From the NCBI GenBank assembly GCA_001592145.1, contig BCWJ01000001.1, forward strand, positions 124,001 through 188,000: DNA of 64,000 nucleotides, in the 5' to 3' direction. The notes beneath the pieces are model-generated. The model was not told the DNA's origin and did not search any database. It saw only the letters and a program-made list of their open reading frames with translations. Below are positions 7,485 through 35,141 of the stretch, piece after piece (the stretch's first letter is position 1; each line of letters starts with the position of its first letter). A program made the translations under genes and the position numbers. This stretch comes from Xylanimicrobium pachnodae JCM 13526 = NBRC 107786 (GTDB lineage: Bacteria; Actinomycetota; Actinomycetes; Actinomycetales; Cellulomonadaceae).

Positions 7485-10373
7485 GTGGCCTCCAAGGCAG
7501 TGAACCTCACCGTCAAGATCCTCGCGGACGCCAAGTCCGCCGCCAAGGGACTCAACGACGCCGGCGGCGCCGTCGGCAAGTTCAAGGCCGCCGCGTCCAA
7601 GGCCGGCACCGCCGTCGGCTCCGTCGTCTCGACCGGCCTCAAGGTCATCGGCGGCTCGATCGCCGCCGTGACCACCCTGGTCACGGGCCTCGCCCTCAAG
7701 GGCGGCATCTCCCGCGCCCTGAACATCCAGGACGCCAAGGCCCAGCTCTCCGGCCTCGGCCACAGCACCGAGTCCGTGACCGCGATCATGACCAACGCCT
7801 CGGCCGCGGTGAAGGGCACCGCGTTCGGGCTCGGCGAGGCCGCCACCACCGCGGCGTCCGCCGTCGCCGCCGGGATCGCCCCCGGCGAGGCGCTCCAGCG
7901 GACCCTCACGCTCGTCTCCGACGCCGCGACCATCGCCGGCACGGACATGGGCTCGATGGGGCAGATCTTCAACAAGGTCGCCGCGTCCAACAAAGTCCAG
8001 ATGGACGTCATCAACCAGCTCCACACCGCCGGCGTGCCCGCCCTCCAGTTCCTCGCCAAGGAGATGGGCGTCACCGCCGAAGAAGCCTCGAAGATGGCGA
8101 GCTCGGGGAAGATCGACTTCGAGACCTTCCAGCGGGCCATGGAGGCTGGGCTCGGCGGCGCCGCGCAGAAGAGCGGCGACACTGCCCGCGGCGCCTTCAA
8201 GAACGTGCTGGCCGCGCTGTCCCGCCTCGGCGAGAAGTTCGTCTCCCCGGCCATCGAGGGCGCCCCCACCCTGCTCAAGTCCGTCATCGGCACCGTCGAC
8301 TCGCTCGGCGAGGCCCTCCAGCCCGTCGCCGACCGGTTCTCCGCCTGGCTCATCCCCGCCATGGAGCGGGCGTCCGTCTGGGTCGCCCGCATCGACTTCG
8401 CCAAGGTCGCCGCGAGCCTGTCGTCGAAGCTCTCCCCGGCGATCAAGACGGCATCCTCGCTGCTCGCCCGGTTCGACCTCGGCAAGGCGCTCGACTCCGC
8501 CCGCACCGGCGCCGGCTACCTGTCCGGGCTGCTCACCATGCTCAACCCGCTCGGGGCCGTGCTGCGCGGCATGATGCCCGCCCTGGGCTCCGTGTCCGGG
8601 TCGCTCGCCGCGATCGGTGGCGCCGTCGGCGGCGTCCTGGCCGCGGTACTGCCCTCGCTCGTCGACTCGTTCGTCTCCCTGGCCCAGGTGGTCGGCGGGG
8701 CGCTCACCGCGGCGCTGCCCTCGGTCGCCTCCCTGCTCGACGTCGTCGCCGGACTCATCCCCGCGATCACCCCGGCCGTCCTCGCCCTGGTGCCCGCGAT
8801 CGTCACGATCGTCGCCGGCCTGATCAAGCTCACCGCCCCGCTGCTCGCCAACGAGAAGCTCGTCACGTCCGTCGTCGCCGCGTTCGTCGCGTGGAAGGTC
8901 ATCACCGGCATCATCGCCGGGGTCAAGGCCGCGGTGCTGCTCGCCAAGGGCGTCCAGCTCGGCTTCACCGCGGCGACCTACGGATCGCAGGGCGCGATGC
9001 TCGTCGCCGGCGCCTCCGCCAAGGTCTACACCGCCGTCATGAAGGTCCAGGCCACCTGGACCAAAGCGGTGACGGCCGCGACCAAGCTCGGCACCAAGGC
9101 CAAGATCGCCGACAAGGCCCAGACCGCGGCGCTGGCCGCCATGTACGCCGGCCAGTGGGTCAAGCAGCAGGCCCTCTCGATCGCGGGATGGGTACGCGAG
9201 ACCGCCGTCATGGCCGCGCACAAGACCGCCCAGTTCGCCTCCGCGGCCGCAACTAAGGCCGTCACCGCCGCCCAGTGGCTCTGGAACGCGGCCATGAGCG
9301 CGAACCCCATCGGCATCGTGATCATCGCGATTGCCACCCTCGTCGCGGCCGTCGTCCTCCTCTGGAAGAAGAGCGACGGGTTCCGCACCGCCGTCATCGC
9401 CACGTGGAAGGCGATCACCTCGGCAGTCTCGAGCGCCGTCGCGGCCATCCGGTCCGTGTGGGACAAGCTCGTGGCCTGGTTCAAGGCCATTCCAGGTCGG
9501 ATCGCCTCGGCTCTCTCCGCGCTCGGCTCCCAGGTCCGGGCCAAGTTCGACCAGGGCCGTGCCGGCGCCCAGGCTGTGTTCGACGCCGTGGTCACCTGGT
9601 TCCGCAACATCCCCGCCCGGGTTGCGTCCTCGGTCTCGGCCGTCGGCTCCCAGGTGCGCTCCCGCTTCGACCAGGCCCGCGCCGGCGCCCAAGCCGTCTT
9701 CGACAACGCCGTCGCATGGTTCCGGGGCATCCCCGCCCGGATCGCGGCCGCAGTCGCGGGCGTGGTCTCGCAGGTGCGAGCCAAGTTCGACCAGACCCGC
9801 GCCGGTGCCCAGGCCGCGTTCGACAGCCTCGTCTCCTGGGTACGCGGCATCCCCGGCCGGATCCTCGGCGCCCTCGGCTCCGTCGGCTCGCTGCTGTTCA
9901 ACGCCGGCAAGTCGATCCTCGACGGGCTCCTGAACGGCATCAAGCGCGGCTTCGAGTCGGTCAAGAACTTCGTCGGAGGGATCGGCTCATGGATCGCGTC
10001 CCACAAGGGCCCCAAGTCCTACGACCTCGCGCTCCTGCGCCCCGCCGGCGGCTGGATCATGGCCGGCCTGGACAACTCGATGCGCGACCAGCTCGGCACC
10101 CTCGCCCGCACCGCGCGGCTCGTCGGCGACACCGTCGCCACGAACATCGCCGGGCACGGCCCTGGTCGCCTGTCCGCCGTCGTCGGGCGCGCCAACGCCA
10201 ACCCGGGCGCGACGGGCGGCGTCGGGTCCGCGTTCGATTCCGTCGCCCTCGCGGCCGCGTTCGACGGCATCACCTTGTGGGTCGACGTCGACGGGCAGCC
10301 CGTGCGCGGCATCGTGCGCGCCGAGCTCGGCGCCCAGGTCGCCCACCGCCGCCTCGCCCAGTGGGGAGCCTGA
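7485..10373 (+). CDS. Tape measure protein
   Basis: 962 residues, GTG start. Sets tail length and is ejected with the DNA. N-terminal phage tail-tape region (ILADAKSAAKGLNDAGGAVGKFKAAASKAG), a TP901-like block (GLGEAATTAASAVAAGIAPGEALQRTLTLV), hydrophobic segments near residues 420-450 and 605-630 (NPIGIVIIAIATLVAAVVLLWKK), and four tandem 40-residue repeats at about 663-805. Each repeat starts VxWFxxIPxRI and ends AGAQAxFD; the fourth is truncated. In DNA the repeat is exactly 120 bp (9471, 9591, 9711, 9831). Such W-x-x-IP repeats are common in actinophage tape measures. Confidence 0.93.
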   Translation: MASKAVNLTVKILADAKSAAKGLNDAGGAVGKFKAAASKAGTAVGSVVSTGLKVIGGSIAAVTTLVTGLALKGGISRALNIQDAKAQLSGLGHSTESVTAIMTNASAAVKGTAFGLGEAATTAASAVAAGIAPGEALQRTLTLVSDAATIAGTDMGSMGQIFNKVAASNKVQMDVINQLHTAGVPALQFLAKEMGVTAEEASKMASSGKIDFETFQRAMEAGLGGAAQKSGDTARGAFKNVLAALSRLGEKFVSPAIEGAPTLLKSVIGTVDSLGEALQPVADRFSAWLIPAMERASVWVARIDFAKVAASLSSKLSPAIKTASSLLARFDLGKALDSARTGAGYLSGLLTMLNPLGAVLRGMMPALGSVSGSLAAIGGAVGGVLAAVLPSLVDSFVSLAQVVGGALTAALPSVASLLDVVAGLIPAITPAVLALVPAIVTIVAGLIKLTAPLLANEKLVTSVVAAFVAWKVITGIIAGVKAAVLLAKGVQLGFTAATYGSQGAMLVAGASAKVYTAVMKVQATWTKAVTAATKLGTKAKIADKAQTAALAAMYAGQWVKQQALSIAGWVRETAVMAAHKTAQFASAAATKAVTAAQWLWNAAMSANPIGIVIIAIATLVAAVVLLWKKSDGFRTAVIATWKAITSAVSSAVAAIRSVWDKLVAWFKAIPGRIASALSALGSQVRAKFDQGRAGAQAVFDAVVTWFRNIPARVASSVSAVGSQVRSRFDQARAGAQAVFDNAVAWFRGIPARIAAAVAGVVSQVRAKFDQTRAGAQAAFDSLVSWVRGIPGRILGALGSVGSLLFNAGKSILDGLLNGIKRGFESVKNFVGGIGSWIASHKGPKSYDLALLRPAGGWIMAGLDNSMRDQLGTLARTARLVGDTVATNIAGHGPGRLSAVVGRANANPGATGGVGSAFDSVALAAAFDGITLWVDVDGQPVRGIVRAELGAQVAHRRLAQWGA

Positions 10374-10375
10374 CC

Positions 10376-11899
10376 ATGGTCGTCATCTCCGACGTCGTCC
10401 GCCGCAACCACCATCTGCGCCCGACCGCGATGAGCCAGGGCAATCCGGGCGGCGGTGCGACGAACATCTTCGGCGGAGCCGCATCCAGTGGATGGACGAC
10501 TACGGCCGCGTTTGAGACGGGCGTGGAGACCCCGGTTCCGCGCATCACAACCACCTACACGAGGACGCACACGGGTACGACATCCACGGGCAGCGGTGAC
10601 TACGTGCGCCTGTACCTGTGCGACGGACTCAACCCCGCAGGAGATGGCAGCGCATTGCCGGCCGGAACGCGGTTCACGTTCGGCGCGCTCTTCTTCTCAG
10701 ACTGGGTGAACCCGGGCGACCCGGGTTCGCGCCTGAACGTTGCCGCATCGGCCCGCCCCTGGAGGTCGACGGGCAACAGGGATCCGCTACCCGTCCCTGG
10801 CTACCCGGGCTGGTATTGGGCGACGACATCGATCGTGACCAGCGGGAGTGATACCGGCGTCGGAGCCTTCGTCGGTGCAGAGCAGACCGACGCGACGTTG
10901 CAGACGTTCCCGTTCAGGTTCCGTGTCACAGCCTGCATCGTGGTCTCCGGCCCTGACGGACAGACGCCGGAGACATTGGCGTTCGAGGACTACTTCGACG
11001 GCGACACCCCCGACGTGAACACGCCGACAGGTGGCTGGTTCTACTCGTGGGATGGCACGCCGAATGCATCGCCGTCGTCGGCGCGGCAGTGGTGGCCGGC
11101 GGTCGTTGAGGCGCGGCTCCTGGCGGGCAGCGAACCGCAGGCGGTGCAGGTGGTGGTCTCGGGGCTGGAGCCGGGCCAGGCGTACACGCTGCGTGGCACA
11201 ACGGCGTCCGGTGACTCGTGGGCGGTGCCGGGTGGGCAGGGGATCGCGGGCGATGACCAGCAGCTCGTCGTGATCGACACGCTCGCGCCGCTCAATGCAC
11301 CGGTCACGTACGTCCTGACGTTGCCCGACGGCGTGCAGGTGAGCAGTGCCCCCATCGTGGTCCCGTGGACCGGCCCGGGGTGTGCGGTGTTCGCGTCGCT
11401 CGACGGGCTGCGTGCCGTGCCGGTCATGTGGGTCGACAACAAGCTTCCCGAGGCCCTCGAGGTCTACTCCTCGAGCTACGCGGTCCCGGGCCGCGCCCGC
11501 CGGCCCGGCCGGTACACGCCCACCGGTGACGGGACGGGGCAGCTCCAGATCCTGATCGCGTCCGGCGACCGGGAGGCGTGGCGGGAGCTGCTGCGCCCGG
11601 GCGAGGTGGTGGTGACCCGCACGGACGGCAGCATCGCGGACTGGCCCGCCGTCGAGATCATCGCGTGCGCCGCCCTGTCCTCGGTGCTGCGGCCCTTGGC
11701 GTCCGACCCGACCGCGCGCCTGTGGACGATCGAGTACGAGCTCGTCGACCTGCCCGACCCGTCCGTCGTGCTCGTCGTGCACACGTGGGACGACTTCGAC
11801 GCCATCTACGCCGACCGGACGTGGGACGACTTCGACGCTGAGTGGCGCGAGCGGACGTGGGACGACTTCGACGCCTACGACTGGGGGCAGCGGCTATGA
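10376..11899 (+). CDS. Minor tail protein (distal tail-like)
   Basis: 507 residues, ATG two bases after the tape measure stop. Beta-rich and Gly/Thr-rich throughout, with a galactose-binding/jelly-roll-like N-terminal part (WTTTAAFETGVETPVPR through YWATTSIVTSGSDTGVGAFV) and a central FN3-like region (VVVSGLEPGQAYTLRGTT). It ends in three 12-residue tandem repeats built on TWDDFDA (DNA period 36 bp: 11783, 11819, 11855). Position after the tape measure fits the distal tail or baseplate hub. The exact role is not shown by sequence. Confidence 0.75.
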   Translation: MVVISDVVRRNHHLRPTAMSQGNPGGGATNIFGGAASSGWTTTAAFETGVETPVPRITTTYTRTHTGTTSTGSGDYVRLYLCDGLNPAGDGSALPAGTRFTFGALFFSDWVNPGDPGSRLNVAASARPWRSTGNRDPLPVPGYPGWYWATTSIVTSGSDTGVGAFVGAEQTDATLQTFPFRFRVTACIVVSGPDGQTPETLAFEDYFDGDTPDVNTPTGGWFYSWDGTPNASPSSARQWWPAVVEARLLAGSEPQAVQVVVSGLEPGQAYTLRGTTASGDSWAVPGGQGIAGDDQQLVVIDTLAPLNAPVTYVLTLPDGVQVSSAPIVVPWTGPGCAVFASLDGLRAVPVMWVDNKLPEALEVYSSSYAVPGRARRPGRYTPTGDGTGQLQILIASGDREAWRELLRPGEVVVTRTDGSIADWPAVEIIACAALSSVLRPLASDPTARLWTIEYELVDLPDPSVVLVVHTWDDFDAIYADRTWDDFDAEWRERTWDDFDAYDWGQRL

Positions 11900-13023
11900 G
11901 CATGCTCGCTGCTGCCCCCGACTCGCTCCTGGCCGGGTGGGCGTCCTGGTCGCCCCAGGTCGCGTCGTGGTACCTGGGGCAGGTCGTCGCGCTCGAGGTG
12001 CCCGTTCGTGGTGGGTCCGTGACCTGGGACGCCTCACGCACCGTGCAAGGGTCGCTCGAGCTCACCGTTCCGCGGTTTGCGGTCGTCGACGACGTCGATG
12101 GCGTCCGCCGGCAGATCGACTGGCTCCCACCGGGCACCCGCGCCGACCACCCGCTCGAGCGGTTCGGGCAGGAGCTCACCGCGGCGGTCGAGGTCGGGTC
12201 GCCGCTCCGCCGCGAGGGCTTCATCAGCCGCCTGGGCCGGTTCGCGATCCAGGAGACCTCCGAGCAGGACGACGGGTCCGTGCAGGTCAACGCGTCCTCC
12301 CGCCTCCAGATCATCGTCGACGCCGGACTGACGACGCCGGTCGCGCCCCGCGAGGACGGCACTCTCGCCAGCGAGTTCCGCCGACTGCTGCCCGCCGGGT
12401 TCGCCGTCACGATCGATCCCGCGCTCGTCGACCGGCCCGTGCCGCGGTCGCTGGAGTGGGCGGACGACCGCATGGCCGCGCTGCTGTCGATCGCGAACGC
12501 GTGGCCGGCGCGCCTGCGCGAGGACGTCGACGGGAACCTCCTCCTGCTGCCGCCGCTGCCCGACGTCGTGACCCCCACGATCACGCTCACGGATGGTGAG
12601 GACGGCACGATCGTCAGTGCCCCGCGGTCGACGACACGGGCCGGCACCTACAACCAGGTGGTCGCGCGTGGTGAGGACGACGGCGAGGACACCGGCCGCC
12701 CACCCGTCCAGGCCACCGCCGAGATGACCCGGGGCCCGCTGGCCACGAGCACCTACAACCCCGTCACGGCGTACTACGCGAGTCCGCTGCTCACCACCGA
12801 GGCCCAGTGTCGGGCCGCCGCGTCGACGAGGCTCGCGAACCTCCTGCGCCCCGCCCGCACCATCACGGTCACGCACGCCCCCGACCCCAGGATCATGCTC
12901 GACACCGCCGTCCGGGCGCGCCGCGACGACTCGACGTGGACCGGGTACGTCGTCGCCACCCAGATCCCGCTCACCGCCGCGGACGGTCCCCAGACCACCA
13001 TCGTGGGGATCGGGGGACAGTGA
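11896..13023 (+). CDS. Minor tail protein (DUF5047-like)
   Basis: 375 residues, start overlapping the preceding stop by 4 bp. Segments such as VSRTVQ-like SVTWDASRTVQGSLELTVPRF and the later ITLTDGEDGTIVSAPRSTTRAGTYNQVVARGEDD resemble actinophage minor tail proteins often labelled DUF5047. These probably belong to the baseplate/hub. The family name is from memory of the pattern, not a search. Ends with a 1-bp overlap to the next gene. Confidence 0.7.
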   Translation: MSMLAAAPDSLLAGWASWSPQVASWYLGQVVALEVPVRGGSVTWDASRTVQGSLELTVPRFAVVDDVDGVRRQIDWLPPGTRADHPLERFGQELTAAVEVGSPLRREGFISRLGRFAIQETSEQDDGSVQVNASSRLQIIVDAGLTTPVAPREDGTLASEFRRLLPAGFAVTIDPALVDRPVPRSLEWADDRMAALLSIANAWPARLREDVDGNLLLLPPLPDVVTPTITLTDGEDGTIVSAPRSTTRAGTYNQVVARGEDDGEDTGRPPVQATAEMTRGPLATSTYNPVTAYYASPLLTTEAQCRAAASTRLANLLRPARTITVTHAPDPRIMLDTAVRARRDDSTWTGYVVATQIPLTAADGPQTTIVGIGGQ

Positions 13024-14294
13024 TGGTCTCCGACCTCGAGCTCCTGGCCGACATGCACCTCGCACCGGCCGGGTTCCGTCCCGAGTCCGACCGCACCGCC
13101 GTCACGACCGGCGTCGTGCTCGGCTACGACGCGAGCTCACGCCTGGCGACCGTAGCCGTCGCAGGGGGAGAGGGCGCCCTGATCCGTGCCGCCGGCGACG
13201 TCGACTGGGCCGCGATCGCGTCCGCCGAGGATGAGGCGCACCACACCTGCTACGTGCTGCGCGACCAGCGCACCGGCGCGTCCCTGCTCGCCGTCGCACC
13301 CGTCAACCCGCCGGCGTCGCCGGCGCTGCCCGGGATCGCACGCGTCACCGCGATCCAGTCCGCCGGCTTCCAGGTCACCGTCGTCGACGCCGACGGCGAC
13401 GAGTTCACCGGCACCGGCATGCAGACCTACACCTCGCCGGCCGTGGGCGACGTCGTCGGACTGTCCTGGGCGCCCGACGGCACCCTGCTGGTGCTCGGCC
13501 GGATCGGGACGGACGCCGCCGCCCCGGCTACCCCCACGGCCCCCTCGGTCTCCCGCGCCGGCGGCACCGTGACCATCGCATGGACCATGCCGGATGGTGC
13601 CCGCCAGATGCGCCGACGGGTCTCGTCGAACGGCGGCAGCACCTGGTCGACGTCGGGCTGGACCACCGCCACCTCTGCCACCGCCGCGATCGGGCAGGGG
13701 CAGACCCTCCTCGTCCAGGTCCAGGCGCAGAACTCCGTCGGCACCTCCGCGTGGTCGACGAGCGCGTCGACCACATGGCCGGCCCCGACGCCATCCCTGG
13801 TGACCCGCACCATCACGATCCGCCCGCACGACTCCGCCACCTACCGCGTGCCGCGCGCCGCCTGGGACCGATGGAACGTCGACCGATACGGCGGCGCGTC
13901 CACCCTCTACCAGGGCGACGGGTACGGGTCCGGGCAGCTCATCGGTGCCGCGTTCTACGGCGACCAGATCGTGCGCCTGGGCGCCGAGGAGATCGTCTCG
14001 ATCACCGTCCTGCTCCGCGGCGCCGGCCTCGCCGCACCGTCATTCCCGGCCGTGACCGTGCGCGGCATCACCAACGGGACCCGCCCCGGCGGCGCCCCCA
14101 CCCAGACCGGTGGCACCGCCACGGCAGCCCCCGGCCAGTCCGGCACCGCACGAGCCGCGCTGCCCGACCTCAACGCCTGGCGCACCGGCGCCATCCGAGG
14201 GCTCGCAACCGTCGGCGCCGGGTACGCGGCGGTGCGCGGCACCTCAGCCGCCGACGGCATGGCCCTCGACGTCACCTACCGGGTCCGCCAGTGA
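13023..14294 (+). CDS. Minor tail protein with FN3-like domain
   Basis: 423 residues. The N-terminal ~160 residues form small beta-barrel-like repeats (VLGYDASSRLATVAV, ITVV-type DADGDEFTGTG, VGLSWAPDGTLLVLG). Then comes an FN3-like domain at about 165-260 (APSVSRAGGTVTIAWTMPDG to VQVQAQNSVGTSAWSTS) and a C-terminal beta domain with TITIRPHDSATYRVPRAAWDRW and GGASTLYQG. Probably a baseplate spike or adhesin carrier that precedes the fibre gene. Confidence 0.75.
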   Translation: MVSDLELLADMHLAPAGFRPESDRTAVTTGVVLGYDASSRLATVAVAGGEGALIRAAGDVDWAAIASAEDEAHHTCYVLRDQRTGASLLAVAPVNPPASPALPGIARVTAIQSAGFQVTVVDADGDEFTGTGMQTYTSPAVGDVVGLSWAPDGTLLVLGRIGTDAAAPATPTAPSVSRAGGTVTIAWTMPDGARQMRRRVSSNGGSTWSTSGWTTATSATAAIGQGQTLLVQVQAQNSVGTSAWSTSASTTWPAPTPSLVTRTITIRPHDSATYRVPRAAWDRWNVDRYGGASTLYQGDGYGSGQLIGAAFYGDQIVRLGAEEIVSITVLLRGAGLAAPSFPAVTVRGITNGTRPGGAPTQTGGTATAAPGQSGTARAALPDLNAWRTGAIRGLATVGAGYAAVRGTSAADGMALDVTYRVRQ

Positions 14295-14303
14295 GGAGCA
14301 CCG

Positions 14304-14462
14304 ATGCCTGACCTGCCCTTCGAGCTCGACGCCTGGCAGTCCATCTGCCCGCACTGCGCCGCCGTCGTCGCCGCCCTCGACCACCACATCACCCACGCCC
14401 ACCCTGCGACGTCGCGCGACGTCGCACCCGAGACCCCCGAGGCCGAGGAGGCCGAGCGATGA
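14304..14462 (+). CDS. Zinc-ligand mini-protein in the tail-fibre module
   Basis: 52 residues, preceded by GTGAGGAGC. Contains CPHC at residues 15-18 followed by a histidine cluster (HHITHAH), a plausible single zinc knuckle. Its C-terminus is acidic. The codons for ATSRDVA are the DNA of the tandem palindrome at 14405-14426. It ends ATGA-overlapped with the tail-fibre gene, so it is coupled to fibre expression. No family recognised; small zinc proteins at this place are common in actinophages. Confidence 0.6.
   Translation: MPDLPFELDAWQSICPHCAAVVAALDHHITHAHPATSRDVAPETPEAEEAER
14405..14426. repeat. Prophage tandem palindrome, exact copy
   Basis: Two abutting GCGACGTCGC palindromes (14406-14425), extended by flanking T and A to 22 bp of dyad symmetry. 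Lies inside the mini-protein gene, just before the tail-fibre gene. Confidence 0.8.
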
Positions 14463-15031
14463 TCGATCCGCGCACCCAGCACGAGGTCCCCGGCGGCGAC
14501 GACCGCCCCGAGCGCGCCTGGCACAACCGCCTGTCCGACTCGATCCACGACACCCTCACCTTCGCGACCCTCGCCGACGCCAACGACTGGGCCGCCGACT
14601 ACCCCACGCACGCCGTCGACGGCCGCCACGCGTGGGTCACCGCCGAGAATGCTGTTTATGTGCGCTCCAGCGGGGCGTGGGCGCAGGTGTGGCCAACGCC
14701 GCCTGCGGATACCACGGCACCCTTGGTGACCGACGTCGCGGCCGGGTGGGAGTTCAGCGCGTACGCCCGACGTCGCAACGGGGTCTGCACGCTCAAGGTC
14801 GAGGCCACTACCTGGCCCGACGTGGCTATAGGTGGCTCGAACACACAGTTGTGTCGCATCGAGGAAGGCTTCCGGCCGGGGATCGAGGCGGGAGTCACCT
14901 GGTCGGATCACGCCGCGTTCGGCCGTATCGGCGCAGATGGTCTCGTGACCATCCAGTACCGCCTTGTCAACGCCGCAGCTGGGCCGCCTGGAAACGCCGT
15001 GATCGGGTTCGCCACGTTCGTGCTCGCCTAG
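14459..15031 (+). CDS. Phase-variable tail fibre / receptor-binding protein, expressed form
   Basis: 190 residues. Residues 1-75 are the constant part (MIDPRTQHEVPGGDDRPERA... to ENAVYVRSSGAWA). Residues 76-190 are the variable C-terminal domain: beta-rich, with GWEFSAYARRR and IEEGFRPGIEAGVTW, resembling a small beta-sandwich head domain. The junction lies inside the left 43-bp inverted repeat, which codes for residues 62-75. Inversion of 14685-15401 would swap the C-terminus for the antisense-encoded alternative, in frame, giving a protein of about 199 residues. Host recognition is inferred from position between minor tail and lysis genes and from the cassette architecture. Confidence 0.8.
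   Translation: MIDPRTQHEVPGGDDRPERAWHNRLSDSIHDTLTFATLADANDWAADYPTHAVDGRHAWVTAENAVYVRSSGAWAQVWPTPPADTTAPLVTDVAAGWEFSAYARRRNGVCTLKVEATTWPDVAIGGSNTQLCRIEEGFRPGIEAGVTWSDHAAFGRIGADGLVTIQYRLVNAAAGPPGNAVIGFATFVLA
14642..14684 (+). repeat. Left inverted repeat (crossover site) of the invertible cassette
   Basis: 43 bp beginning GCCGAGAATGCTGTTTATGT and ending GCGTGGGCGC. Identical, in opposite orientation, to 15402-15444. It encodes AENAVYVRSSGAWA. The four consecutive T-ending codons AAT GCT GTT TAT are atypical for this GC-rich gene set, as expected if the DNA itself is the recombination site. Confidence 0.88.
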
Positions 15032-15444
15032 CCGCGGATCCACACTCCGCTGGCAGTTCGCGACGTGCCGGTGTCCCATGTCGCGTTGGCCAGCATCGCC
15101 GAGACGATGAGCATCCCCTGCGCGTTCAGATAGAGGTTCGTCATGGGCCCAGATCCGAGGATGCCCCAGGGGACGGCGAGGTTCGGGCGTACGGGTTCGG
15201 CGATCTGCGCGATGTTGACGTTCGCGTTGTCGCCCGTTCCCCCGGCAGTGATGGTCGCCCCGTTGCGTAGCAGGAGCAGCTCCAGGCTGTGAACTCGGTT
15301 GACGGCACAGTAGGCGCGAACCTCGACCGACCACCCGTCCTGCGCCGTGACCAGCCCATCTGGCGGCGTCGTCGTGTACGCATCGGTGGCGGACCACTCG
15401 AGCGCCCACGCCCCGCTGGAGCGCACATAAACAGCATTCTCGGC
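15028..15444 (-). CDS. Silent alternative C-terminal cassette of the tail fibre
   Basis: On the minus strand the frame enters through the right repeat (AENAVYVRSSGAWA) and continues LEWSATDAYTTTPPDGL... to ...TASGVWIRG and a TAG stop at 15028. The unique part is 124 residues. It has no start codon or ribosome site of its own; upstream of the repeat the frame reads as arginine-rich nonsense. It shares the layout of the expressed domain: GW near the start, an I-x-E-x-x-RP turn, Gly-Met/Leu-Val strand, and a W-x-x-G near the end. It is therefore likely a diverged paralogue held in reserve. Confidence 0.85.
   Translation of the reverse strand, partial: AENAVYVRSSGAWALEWSATDAYTTTPPDGLVTAQDGWSVEVRAYCAVNRVHSLELLLLRNGATITAGGTGDNANVNIAQIAEPVRPNLAVPWGILGSGPMTNLYLNAQGMLIVSAMLANATWDTGTSRTASGVWIRG
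15402..15444 (-). repeat. Right inverted repeat (crossover site) of the invertible cassette
   Basis: Exact reverse complement of 14642-14684. Bases outside differ (TCGAG inside, AGCCGC outside), so the repeat is exactly 43 bp. Confidence 0.88.
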
Positions 15445-15457
15445 AGCCGCGCCCCCA

Positions 15458-15488: not shown

Positions 15489-15593
15489 ATGACCGCTCCA
15501 GACGACACCGACTACCACGGCGACGAGCTGAGCGACGACGGCCTCCCGCTCGAGGCGACCGCCGCCGACGAGGACGATGAGGAGCCAGACTGA
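15489..15593 (+). CDS. Acidic mini-protein upstream of endolysin
   Basis: 34 residues (MTAPDDTDYHGDELSDDGLP, then LEATAADEDDEEPD), with 14 Asp/Glu. The stop TGA overlaps the endolysin ATG (TGATGG), so translation through it would couple to the endolysin. Too short for homology judgement; it could be a leader peptide, a fibre-associated remnant or not a protein at all. Confidence 0.4.
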   Translation: MTAPDDTDYHGDELSDDGLPLEATAADEDDEEPD

Positions 15594-16486
15594 TGGTCGC
15601 GATCGCCACCCGCGCCTCCTGGGGCGCCCGCTACGCCGACGGCGACAAGACCCTCACGGGCCTGGCCGCCGAGGTGTTCGTCCACCACACCGTCAGCACG
15701 CAGCTGCCGGCGACCGCCACGGTCGACCAGGAGCGCGCCCAGGTGCGCGCGGTCGAGCAGACCGGCCAGAACCGGTTCGGCACCGGCATCAGCTACAACG
15801 TGCTCATCTTCCCGTCCGGCCGCGCCTACCAGGGCGTGTCGTGGAACCGCCGCGGCACCCACACCGGCGGACGCAACAGCACCAGCCGGTCCATCTGCTT
15901 CGTCGGGAACTACGAGACCAACCAGCCCACGGCCGCCCAGCTCGCCACCGCGGCCGCCATCTACGACGAGGGCAGGGGCAAGTGGTGGAAGATCACCGCC
16001 CCGCTGCGCGGCCACTGCGACGTCTCCGTGACCGCCTGCCCCGGCAAGAACGTGTTCTCCCGCCTCCCCGAGATCCGCGCTGGCAACCCGGGCGGCACGC
16101 CGGCGCCGGCCCCGGCGCCGTCGGGACTCAAGGTCGACGGGTTCTGGGGTTCGGCGACGAGCACCCGGCTCCAGCAGGTCCTCGGCACCCCCGCCGACGG
16201 CGTCGTGTCCCACCAGACCGCCGCGTGGCGCAGCCAGAACCCGGGCCTGACCACGGGCTGGGACTGGACCGGCAAGGCGGGCGACGGCGGATCGCAGATG
16301 ATCGCCGAGCACCAGCGGCGGCTCAAGGCGCGTGGCCGCTACGCCGGCGCGATCGACGGCAAGGCCGGCCCGCAGTACTTCCGCGGCCTCCAGGCCGACC
16401 TCGGTACTCCCGTCGACGGCACCATCTCCGAGCAGTCCCGCATGGTCATGGCGCTCCAGCGGCGCCTCAACGCGGGGACGGTCTGA
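15593..16486 (+). CDS. Endolysin: N-acetylmuramoyl-L-alanine amidase
   Basis: 297 residues. Type-2 amidase/PGRP fold at residues 1-165: VFVHHTVS supplies a zinc histidine (H31 or H32), SYNVLIFPSGRAYQGV is the conserved core, and RGHCDVSVTACPGKN supplies H141 and C149. After a Pro-Ala linker (168-176) two peptidoglycan-binding-like repeats follow (KVDGFWGSATSTRLQQVLG and a later LQADLGTPVDGTISEQSRMVM). It cleaves the glycan-peptide amide bond at the end of the lytic cycle. Neighbouring membrane proteins are the holin candidates. Confidence 0.93.
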   Translation: MVAIATRASWGARYADGDKTLTGLAAEVFVHHTVSTQLPATATVDQERAQVRAVEQTGQNRFGTGISYNVLIFPSGRAYQGVSWNRRGTHTGGRNSTSRSICFVGNYETNQPTAAQLATAAAIYDEGRGKWWKITAPLRGHCDVSVTACPGKNVFSRLPEIRAGNPGGTPAPAPAPSGLKVDGFWGSATSTRLQQVLGTPADGVVSHQTAAWRSQNPGLTTGWDWTGKAGDGGSQMIAEHQRRLKARGRYAGAIDGKAGPQYFRGLQADLGTPVDGTISEQSRMVMALQRRLNAGTV

Positions 16487-17083: not shown

Positions 17084-17695
17084 TCAGAGGCCGACGCCGG
17101 TAGCGCCGTACTCGGCCTGCTCCTGCGTGAACCCGTCGAAGTCGACGAGCTGCGTGATCAGACCGGCCCGTGAGAAGCCCATCACGTCGAGGTACGCCTG
17201 CGCGGATCGCACGGCCTGCTCGTTCCAGTCGACGTCGAGCGCGTCGACGGCGGCCGTCGCGTCCTCCTCGGAGAACCTCTCGAACTCGACGAGCTGGTTG
17301 ATCAGGCCCGAGCGTGAGAAGCCCGTGGTGTCGAGGTACGACTGTGCCGAACGGCCCGCCTGCTCGACCCAGTCCACACCCAGCGAGTCCACCGCGACCG
17401 TGACGTCCTCCTCGGCGTGCTGGTCGAACTCGACGAGCTGGTTGATCAGGCCGTCACGCGAGAAGCCCATGAACTCGAGGTAGCTCTCCGCACCGCGGCG
17501 GGCCTGCTCCTGCGCCGCCGTGAGCTCGGGGCCCTCGGCCTCGGCCTCGGCCTCCTCGACCTCCGGCTCCGCCGGCTGCTCGGTCGCCTGCTCGGTGGCC
17601 GGCTGCTCCGCCGACGCGTCGTCCTCGACGGCGCACGCTGTCAGGCCGACCGCCGCCACCGCGGCGACCGCGGCCGCCATGAACTTCCTGCGCAT
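17084..17695 (-). CDS. Ltp-like surface lipoprotein, probable superinfection exclusion
   Basis: 203 residues. A lipoprotein signal peptide (MRRKFMAAAV... with lipobox LTAC, C21) is followed by an acidic low-complexity stalk (about 22-58). Then come three repeats of about 48 residues (65-112, 113-160, 161-203) of the form A-x-x-YLxxxGFSRxGLIxQLVEF-xx-FxxEDAxxAVDxLxVDW. This is the host-cell-surface Ltp repeat known from lactic phage TP-J34, where the lipoprotein blocks DNA injection by related phages. A clear GGAGG lies 5 bp before ATG 17695. Leftward orientation against the late genes marks it as a lysogenic-conversion gene. The exclusion role is by family analogy. Confidence 0.85.
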   Translation of the reverse strand: MRRKFMAAAVAAVAAVGLTACAVEDDASAEQPATEQATEQPAEPEVEEAEAEAEGPELTAAQEQARRGAESYLEFMGFSRDGLINQLVEFDQHAEEDVTVAVDSLGVDWVEQAGRSAQSYLDTTGFSRSGLINQLVEFERFSEEDATAAVDALDVDWNEQAVRSAQAYLDVMGFSRAGLITQLVDFDGFTQEQAEYGATGVGL

Positions 17696-17904
17696 GAATC
17701 CTCCAAGTGGAATGTCGTGCTCACAGAGTCCGCCAGCCGCGCCCGCCACTCGGCCCGGTGGCGCGTACACGAGGTGGCAGCGGCGACGCATGTAGGTGGC
17801 GCGCGATGACGCGTGCGCGGCGCGAACCGCCAGGCAGAGTGCGACCCGCCTACCCGCGGGAAAGCCACCGCCCGCATCGCCCCATGCGACGTCGGGGATT
17901 CGTG

Positions 17905-17949
17905 CTGCCAACCCGCAGGTTGGGAGTTCGAACCCCTACCCGCGCGCCA
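17905..17949 (+). other. Degenerate tRNA 3'-end-like sequence
   Basis: GGTTGGGAGTTCGAACCCCTA reads as a T-arm that pairs perfectly if one A (17925) is bulged. It is followed by a 7-nt acceptor-like CCCGCGC, a G discriminator and CCA (17947-17949). No D-arm or matching 5' acceptor is found in the 75 bases before, so this is not a whole tRNA. It resembles the attR tRNA end at 20001-20023 and may be a fossil attachment site or pseudo-tRNA. Its end overlaps the 3' end of the HTH gene. Confidence 0.4.
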
Positions 17950-19022: not shown

Positions 19023-19877
19023 TCACGCCGCGTTGTCGGCGATCGCGTTGATGAGGCGCCGTTTCGCGTCGTCGGGCAGGCGGACGTAGCGGCGCGTGGT
19101 CGCGGGCGACGCGTGCCCGAGGAGGTCCTGGACCACGAAGACATCGCGGTCGACGGCGTAGGCGAGCGTCGCAAACCTGTGGCGGAGGCTGTGCATCGTC
19201 CACTCGCCCGGAAGGCGCTTCGCGATCAGCTTGCCGACCCAGCGCGGACTCAGGTGCCTGCCGTCGTCGCCGGGGAAGATGTAGCCCGGGCCGAGCGCGA
19301 CGATCCGCGCCGCGATTGCCGGGCGCAGCGGCACGAGGCGCTCCTTGCGGCCCTTGCCGTGCACGAGCAGCGACCAGCCGCCGAGGTCCTGGAGGACGTC
19401 GCGCGTGTGGATCTGTGCCACCTCGGCCCGCCGCAGGCCGCATTGACCTGCGAGTTCGATCATGAGCCGCTCGCGCGGCGTTGCGGCGGCCAGTGCCTCG
19501 CGCAGCACCATGTCGGGGGTCGGCCGGGGGAGCGGCTGGCCGGCCTTGACGGGTGGCAGGTCGGTGGCCGGGTTCTCGGTGATGCGGCGCATCTTGACGC
19601 CCCAGGTGTAGAAGCCGCGCAGCGAGCTCCGCACGTTCCGGCGCGTCTCCGACGCCCAGGTCTTCGACCCCATCCACTCGACGAGGTCCTCGAGTGTCAG
19701 CTCCCACGGGCCGCGCTCACCGGCCCACGCGGCGAGCCAGCGCACGTGGTCGGTGCGGGTACGGATGGAGGACTCCTCGCGCCCGCCGGCGCGCAGCGAG
19801 GCAGCCCAGGACGAGATCTCGGTGGCCCACTCAGGGCAAGCAGGTGTGCTCATGCCGAGGTGATGTACCGAACCCAT
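19023..19877 (-). CDS. int: Tyrosine recombinase, phage integrase
   Basis: 284 residues (from 19877; ATG at 19853 is an alternative). N-terminal SAM-like core-binding domain (about 13-100) and C-terminal catalytic domain with the complete tyrosine recombinase set: R149 in GQCGLRRAEV, K175 in HGKGRKERLVPL, H229-x-x-R232 in MHSLRHRFAT, H255 in LLGHASPATT and the nucleophile Y264 in TRRYVRL. It integrates the phage at the tRNA-Arg-like 3' end only 110 bp away. It is the only recombinase in the window and therefore a possible, though unproven, actor on the invertible cassette. Confidence 0.95.
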   Translation of the reverse strand: MGSVHHLGMSTPACPEWATEISSWAASLRAGGREESSIRTRTDHVRWLAAWAGERGPWELTLEDLVEWMGSKTWASETRRNVRSSLRGFYTWGVKMRRITENPATDLPPVKAGQPLPRPTPDMVLREALAAATPRERLMIELAGQCGLRRAEVAQIHTRDVLQDLGGWSLLVHGKGRKERLVPLRPAIAARIVALGPGYIFPGDDGRHLSPRWVGKLIAKRLPGEWTMHSLRHRFATLAYAVDRDVFVVQDLLGHASPATTRRYVRLPDDAKRRLINAIADNAA

Positions 19878-19906
19878 CTACGCGGCCCGATCAACCAGCG
19901 ACGCGA

Positions 19907-19928
19907 CGCGACGTCGCGCGACGTCGCG
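19907..19928. repeat. Prophage tandem palindrome, exact copy (integrase promoter side)
   Basis: Core 19908-19927 with C and G flanks extending symmetry to 22 bp. It lies between the integrase start and attR, where an operator controlling integrase or an arm-type site for recombination would be expected. Confidence 0.82.
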
Positions 19929-19986
19929 GCGGAACGGCAAGACCTTGGCGGCGCTGCCGCTGGTCATGGAGCCGCTGACTCCAAAG

Positions 19987-20023
19987 CAGAAGGTTGGGGG
20001 TTCGAATCCCTCCGGGCGCACCA
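19987..20023 (+). other. attR core: tRNA-Arg-like 3' end
   Basis: CAGAAGGTTGGGGGTTCGAA, then TCCCTCCGGGCGCACCA, reads as the end of an anticodon stem, variable loop, perfect T-arm (GGGGG/CCCTC), acceptor strand CGGGCGC, discriminator A and CCA. It matches the known actinobacterial tRNA-Arg pattern. The required 5' acceptor GCGCCCG and a D-arm are absent upstream, so only the 3' part is here: the phage-derived copy created at integration. The intact tRNA is expected left of the window at attL, pointing rightward. Confidence 0.8.
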
Positions 20024-35073: not shown

Positions 35074-35141
35074 TCTGGTCGTCGACGTGCGGTCTGGTAG
35101 TCGGTTCAGGCCGACGACCAGACCGCACGTCGACGACCAGA
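35074..35141. repeat. Long palindromic element, family copy 1
   Basis: 31-bp arms with one mismatch and a 6-nt loop (TTCAGG). Each arm contains two direct copies of the 12-mer TCTGGTCGTCGA-like unit, so four units in all. The same unit and layout recur at 54656-54725. A strong hairpin at either end of plus-strand genes could also terminate transcription. Confidence 0.8.

Follow-up and report, generated by a model that had tools for sequence, protein, structure and literature searches.

Can a short tail-fibre gene in an actinobacterial prophage exchange its tip by DNA inversion and, if so, which recombinase would carry out the exchange? The question is raised by a pair of inverted repeats in a 64-kb window (the whole stretch of DNA analysed; C1:124001-188000 in a draft genome of 4.0 Mb and 79 contigs). 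The first-pass annotation had described perfect 43-bp inverted repeats around 717 bp, a plus-strand fibre gene running through the left repeat, and a minus-strand frame running through the right one with the same peptide in the same phase before a different 124-residue tip. Comparison of the arms bore out these descriptions, coordinates included. In window positions, the cassette consists of:

14459..15031, plus strand: short tail-fibre/receptor-binding-type gene in its current orientation, 190 aa, constant part and tip A (by family membership)
14459-14683, plus strand: constant part of the fibre gene, 75 aa
14642..14684, plus strand: left arm of the perfect 43-bp inverted repeat (arm comparison)
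14684..15031, plus strand: tip A, 115 aa, now fused to the constant part (arm analysis and codon-position GC)
15028..15402, minus strand: tip B, 124 aa, now silent (arm analysis and codon-position GC)
15402..15444, minus strand: right arm of the perfect 43-bp inverted repeat (arm comparison)

The arms are identical over exactly 43 nt and their match ends sharply at either side. Both encode the peptide AENAVYVRSSGAWA, in the same phase on either strand. The two tips are convergent, and only one is joined to the start-bearing constant part. Exact inverted 25-mer matches in the window numbered 26, with 19 from the 43-bp pair and seven from two hairpin-sized repeats near 35074 and 54656. A 78-nt query beginning with the left repeat matched strongly at two places in the 4.0-Mb genome, the two arms themselves; the next best among the 25 matches listed covered 25 nt at 88%.

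Inversion is predicted to yield a 199-aa protein with its first 75 residues unchanged, in agreement with the earlier proposal that the silent tip would be fused in frame to the constant part. The same annotation gave the silent tip no start of its own. This holds in that the start-bearing constant part is joined to one tip; as a general statement it needs qualifying. An in-phase GTG lies inside each repeat, both here and in the Xylanimonas example described below, and the silent frame stays mechanically open, antisense to the genes downstream, as far as a GTG at 15609. These codons make an independent start possible by sequence, and tip B might be expressed on its own. The opposite orientation was not found in either example, each a single assembly showing one orientation. 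The IMG/VR copies derive from the same assemblies; that of the window prophage is identical over 13,395/13,395 nt, has the same orientation and adds no independent evidence.

Upstream of the fibre gene come a tape measure gene and two more tail genes, downstream an endolysin gene, in a prophage that ends in an integrase gene and an attachment site:

7485..10373, plus strand: tail tape measure protein (phrog_58, 1.1e-64, one of several tape-measure families matched; phrog_971, which ranks first, carries an endolysin label)
11896..13023, plus strand: tail protein (phrog_1887, 1.9e-36; 44% to its counterpart in the Xylanimonas prophage)
13023..14294, plus strand: tail protein directly before the fibre gene (41% to its counterpart in the Xylanimonas prophage)
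15593..16486, plus strand: amidase endolysin (PF01510, 1e-18)
19023..19877, minus strand: phage tyrosine integrase, 284 aa (PF00589, 2.6e-18; phrog_1 integrase, 3.6e-41; best PDB match 5vfz Gp33, 2.5e-17)
19987..20021, plus strand: attR core, 35 bp, identical to the 3' end of tRNA-Arg(acg)

The prophage is inserted in tRNA-Arg(acg). The intact tRNA lies beyond the window at C1:117135-117208 and, with the 35-bp core, delimits a prophage of ~27 kb that ends within the window. From its position and family, the fibre presumably has a receptor-binding role. Its structure predictions were poor (mean pLDDT of 43 for the fibre and 44 for tip B) and a PDB profile search of the fibre family returned weak hits only (best E 0.14).

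Several other features of this prophage were recorded. A repressor-like ORF (C1:117173-117607, minus strand; L032:13173-13607) has its end in the prophage within the tRNA/att core (..DVRPEGFEPPTF); at the attR side (19880-20021) the same frame is 36 residues longer, running to ..SLVDRAA, and the integrase ends in ..NAA. The ..SLVDRAA and ..NAA ends could serve as degradation tags. The arrangement of repressor, att site and integrase is the anatomy of integration-dependent immunity, as outlined for mycobacteriophage BPs in the part of the source cited (PMC4557955). A perfect 20-bp palindrome, GCGACGTCGCGCGACGTCGC, has seven exact copies, and 10 copies at ≤2 mismatches, in C1:84001-188000, with 10/10 inside the prophage (window positions 1470, 14406, 16691, 18165, 18913 and 19908; C1:120853, 121818, 122183 and 122607); these are possible repressor operators. 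A second tRNA-3'-end-like fragment at the right end (17918-17949; 82% over 33 nt to the attR tRNA fragment) is perhaps a relic of another integration. A lipoprotein with three Ltp repeats is encoded at 17084-17911 on the minus strand (PF07553, 1.7e-38), a type that we take to be a superinfection-exclusion factor.

Related prophages have short fibres with a related N-terminus and a variable C-terminus after the same tail gene, with one fixed tip each. We scanned 13 loci with a related tail gene or fibre for exact inverted repeats of at least 14 bp (loop 60-4000), and one longer than 16 bp occurred only in Xylanimonas; the other 12 loci include two pairs with the same fibre (L097/L124 and L099/L125) and one incomplete locus (L100). 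An imperfect 36-bp direct repeat was also seen in genome G236 (L121:3731 and 4266), its two copies 535 bp apart and ~3.6 kb past the related tail gene. The search for relatives matched 5/298 genomes: the window's own genome, Xylanimonas (G027, with a cassette), G152 (complete fibre, no repeat), and G142 and G042. The last two were rejected as fibre relatives, their matching frames belonging to another kind of protein, presumably peptidase-like. The second tail gene (13023..14294) had matches in 12/396 genomes of the order, and larger stretches were taken for six of these besides the window's own. When the fibre, tip B and the Xylanimonas silent tip were searched by tblastn against 50,697 phage records, nothing matched at E ≤0.1, and a protein scan of genome contigs found no relative. 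In viral contigs, neither the fibre nor tip B picked up anything but the window prophage; the first tail gene found both prophages, and the second found both plus five relatives.

The silent tips look like real coding sequence, as judged by their GC signature at the third codon position. Over the 123 codons past the repeat, tip B has codon-position GC of 0.62/0.54/0.85, and the Xylanimonas silent tip has 0.57/0.55/0.94. Among five tips compared, the Xylanimonas silent tip matched that of the complete fibre at locus L036 (29% over 114 aa, E = 7e-9); tip B matched it weakly (28% over 120, E = 0.002) and tip A at E = 0.09 only.

The cassette is not a one-off, since the same anatomy recurs with diverged sequence in a second genus. 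Xylanimonas oleitrophica PW21 (NZ_QKWH01000001.1), from the same family as the window's genome (a family that we place in Micrococcales), encodes a homologous fibre with 46% identity over 78 residues of the constant part. This fibre has its own perfect 40-bp inverted repeat, different in sequence from the window repeat. The shared peptide is again read in phase from either strand, and the two tips converge. Four tail genes, the fibre included, are common to the two prophages at 39-46% amino acid identity, and they have no recombinase in common. The two examples descend from a common ancestor, so that together they amount to a single sampling of the site.

When the two repeats were compared, 23/24 nt were identical across a core (GAGAATGCTGTTTAYGTGCGCTCC), against 113/183 directly upstream. 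The core is written in codons that the prophage otherwise avoids: AAT, GCT, GTT and TAT (TAC in Xylanimonas), used for their residues 0/49, 9/389, 3/210 and 0/33 times, respectively, in six gene stretches of the window prophage. The joint probability of these rare codons is ~5e-8 (with 0.5 entered for zero counts). The complete fibre at L036 has the same peptide motif in ordinary GC-ending codons and no repeat. At ≤3 mismatches, the core occurs in 2/221 genomes of the family, at four places that form two inverted pairs (backwards control, 0), and in 1/396 genomes of the order, the window's own (backwards control, one match). In viral contigs the core pattern gave four stretches, namely both prophages and two single matches judged to be chance; a looser pattern gave 15, with pairs only in the two prophages. 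In genome contigs there were 14 stretches, with a pair only in Xylanimonas. Because the core is kept in rare codons and above its surroundings, selection seems to act on the DNA itself, beyond the peptide, as it would on a crossover site.

Taken with the coding signature of the tips and the example from a second genus, the rare-codon core argues that the locus is very probably an invertible tail-tip cassette, a two-state switch of a tailed actinobacterial prophage. The earlier suggestion that the prophage varies its tip is supported to this extent, whilst flipping itself was not observed. We infer that the segment flips and that the two tips would bind different receptors, so that a switch of tip could change host range.

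What, then, would flip the segment? In the Gin, Cin and Min systems of Mu, P1 and p15B, a serine invertase inverts a segment carrying alternative fibre C-termini. To our knowledge, known tail-fibre inversion systems carry their own invertase, save one bifidophage case without a named enzyme. The window cassette is like Gin/Cin/Min in its constant fibre part and in the inverted repeats that flank alternative C-termini in phase, but those systems encode the serine invertase with the segment and a genome-wide PF00239 search found none with this cassette. A serine invertase was rejected as the flipping enzyme: the lone PF00239 match lies on another contig (C30) and adjoins a TnpB-like ORF, which presumably makes it an IS607-type enzyme. 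The comparison with Mu, P1 and Min made at first pass is therefore apt for the anatomy and fails for the enzyme, which must be another. In Xylanimonas there were two PF00239 matches, both on contig C1 and neither on the fibre contig; the one above cut-off is a resolvase/invertase-like protein beside a transposase-like ORF.

Genome-wide searches with PF00589 and PF00239 detected no dedicated invertase in the prophage. PF00589 had 16 matches in the window's genome, and the one in the prophage is the 284-aa integrase adjoining attR, the sole recombinase found there. The two hosts, unlike the two prophages, do have recombinases in common, which speaks for a host enzyme: XerD (78%), XerC (79%) and a third that is Xer-like (81%); a 221-aa protein (79%) is shared as well. 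The Xer names are those of the best NCBIfam models, with equivalog scores (XerD, 323/330 bits; XerC, 284/335) under the strict cut-offs; at subfamily level, the XerD-type protein satisfies model NF001399. The host thus encodes XerC and XerD, as Xer-driven inversion requires. The third Xer-like tyrosine recombinase lies 1.2 kb from the chromosomal dif in the window's genome (G000:C10:94208-95872) and 3.9 kb from it in Xylanimonas (G027:C26:87636-92042).

We compared the repeats with dif, the chromosomal site of XerC/XerD. Two 28-bp sites, with putative arms, were placed on the repeats:

14639..14666, plus strand: left dif-like site, with XerC-type arm 14639-14649, spacer TGCTGT 14650-14655 and XerD-type arm 14656-14666
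15420..15447, minus strand: right dif-like site, inverted, with the same spacer

The spacer TGCTGT is present in all four copies, two in the window and two in Xylanimonas; that of host dif is TGCACA. A dif-like sequence, CCGATAATGCACATTATGTCAT or close to it, was found in 7/7 family genomes tested, in the window's own at C10:94208-94227 with a weaker second match 0.6 kb away. Against a dif profile built from the seven family genomes, 0/2000 dinucleotide shuffles reached the score of the window repeat; the left Xylanimonas repeat was matched by 28 (arms) or 54 (all positions) of 2000 shuffles, and a reversed-dif control by 60 and 61 of 500. The fibre site (ACCGCCGAGAA|TGCTGT|TTATGTGCGCT) was also aligned with the Frankia alni dif (CACGCCGATAA|TGCACA|TTATGTCAAGT; XerC arm|spacer|XerD arm), as given in the part of the source cited (PMC3025954). 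The left site, at 18/28, was the best of ~208,000 positions in C1:84001-188000; 1/400 shuffles reached this score and 0/400 reached that of the right site (17/28). In 100 kb of Xylanimonas, three positions beat the fibre site (left, 16/28; right, 15/28), and the scores were reached by seven and 18 of 400 shuffles, respectively.

A plain count against the host's own dif was unremarkable: 15/28, reached by 19 (left) and five (right) of 400 shuffles, with 46 of ~208,000 positions, the fibre sites included, scoring 15 or higher. With the eight inner bases of each arm counted, 12/16 was reached only by the two fibre sites, in a register one base off that of the profile. The match is imperfect: the XerC arm has GAGAA in place of GATAA, and the outer part of the XerD arm is divergent. 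The register was picked after inspection, and the window and Xylanimonas sites share ancestry. Overall, the resemblance to dif is specific in register and suggestive rather than conclusive.

On this evidence, inversion of the cassette by host XerC/XerD is the reading that we favour, at slightly below an even chance. The 43-bp repeats would hold inverted 28-bp dif-like sites with identical spacers, at which the host's chromosome-dimer-resolution enzymes, XerC and XerD, would act in trans with no dedicated invertase from the phage; each flip would fuse the 75-residue constant part to tip A or tip B. As the spacer differs from that of host dif, flipping would be favoured over recombination with the chromosome. 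The flip points would resemble the host Xer site because the phage seems to have no flipping enzyme of its own.

Other recombinases have to be weighed against host XerC/XerD. The prophage's small tyrosine integrase might double as the invertase and recombine the fibre sites in addition to its att sites. No other recombinase was detected in the prophage; this one is encoded 3.6 kb from the cassette, has the size of a Xer protein and matches mainly Xer-type NCBIfam models. Its best solved relative, 5vfz Gp33, is presumably the Brujita integrase, which, by a paper's title, is reportedly arm-less, directionless and promiscuous. We nevertheless regard this as unlikely. For the 35-bp att core, the likeness to the repeat is no greater than for shuffled sequence (75-90 of 400 shuffles reach its 14/28, and 53 of 60 its 13/24), and the Xylanimonas prophage, which has the same fibre core, carries a 492-aa integrase (C11:528010, ~51 kb from the fibre) with no BLAST hit to that of the window; its genome has no close copy of the 284-aa integrase (best E 4.6e-9, 42% over 107 aa). 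It is rather unlikely, too, that another recombinase serves the cassette in trans, be it the third Xer-like protein or an enzyme of another element. The conservation of the former between hosts and its closeness to dif, together with the 16 PF00589 matches in the genome, leave room for one, and service in trans has likewise been suggested for a bifidophage inversion without a flanking recombinase in the part of the source cited (PMC6109161). However, nothing links these candidates to the repeat sequence; the one known class of sites similar to it is that of XerC/XerD.

The locus might instead have no active switch, being either a frozen inverted duplication of a tip or subject to rare RecA-dependent flips. 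Repeats of 40-43 bp could recombine homologously at a low rate, and each of the two examples was seen in a single orientation. Yet homologous recombination needs no set sequence, whilst here a 24-bp core is conserved between genera in rare codons; moreover, the repeats are perfect although the adjoining sequence has diverged, and codon bias is kept in the silent tips. We consider an inactive locus distinctly improbable.

The first-pass annotation knew of no well-described equivalent with so small a fibre in Micrococcales phages; among actinobacterial phages there are two precedents. The nearest known system is the Rin shufflon of Bifidobacterium prophages, in which, according to the part of the source cited, the constant N-terminus of a receptor-binding protein is inverted onto several alternative short C-termini of 95-100 aa; a predicted dedicated tyrosine invertase gene flanks the locus and the rix site is 11 bp (PMC6109161). 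Rin and the window cassette are alike in lying in an actinobacterial prophage, in joining a constant part to alternative short tips and in the tyrosine-type enzyme proposed. They differ in that the cassette has two tips, a 43-bp repeat with a dif-like core and no dedicated invertase detected; a Rin-type tyrosine invertase apart from the integrase was not found by PF00589 in the prophage. The rix site (TTCCCTAACCC) scored at best 6/11 in the four repeat copies, as did 339-367 of 400 shuffles. By the features tested, the cassette belongs neither to Gin/Cin/Min nor to Rin.

The second precedent, in bifidophages integrated at tRNA-Met, is closest to the window cassette in lacking an adjacent enzyme: ~500 bp flips with no flanking recombinase and the enzyme is suggested to act in trans (PMC6109161). 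It differs in its 8-bp site (CAGGGTTA), which matches the window repeat no better than chance, and in that, in the part of the source cited, the proteins have no identified function and no particular enzyme is proposed (PMC6109161). Enzyme-less use of host XerC/XerD at dif-like sites is described for pdif modules and for IMEX elements such as CTX-type phages (PMC13141974, PMC5357621). In the passages cited, Acinetobacter plasmids undergo inversion between two pdif sites of opposite orientation whose 6-bp spacers are identical, a configuration also present in the window and in Xylanimonas; pdif recombination is said there to require XerC (PMC13141974), and divergence of the XerD arm is tolerated in IMEX phages (PMC5357621). 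The pdif and IMEX sites there serve module shuffling or integration, whereas the window sites lie inside a tail gene and their Xer role is predicted. Among the matches listed in the open-access literature, with subscription papers outside the search, there was no report of tail-fibre inversion by XerC/XerD.

Relative to Rin, a dif-like, host-driven tip inversion would be new, if true; the locus offers a testable candidate enzyme, a defined site that is conserved as DNA inside coding sequence, and examples in two genera. It is conceivable, with chances a little short of balanced, that the dif-like sites double as the codons for ENAVYVRS and that host XerC/XerD flip the tip, in which case the phage could do without an invertase and its flipping might keep step with the host cell cycle. 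If the switch is Xer-driven, similar cassettes may have gone overlooked, as no invertase gene would flag them, and the phage would have turned the host's chromosome-separation enzymes into a host-recognition switch.
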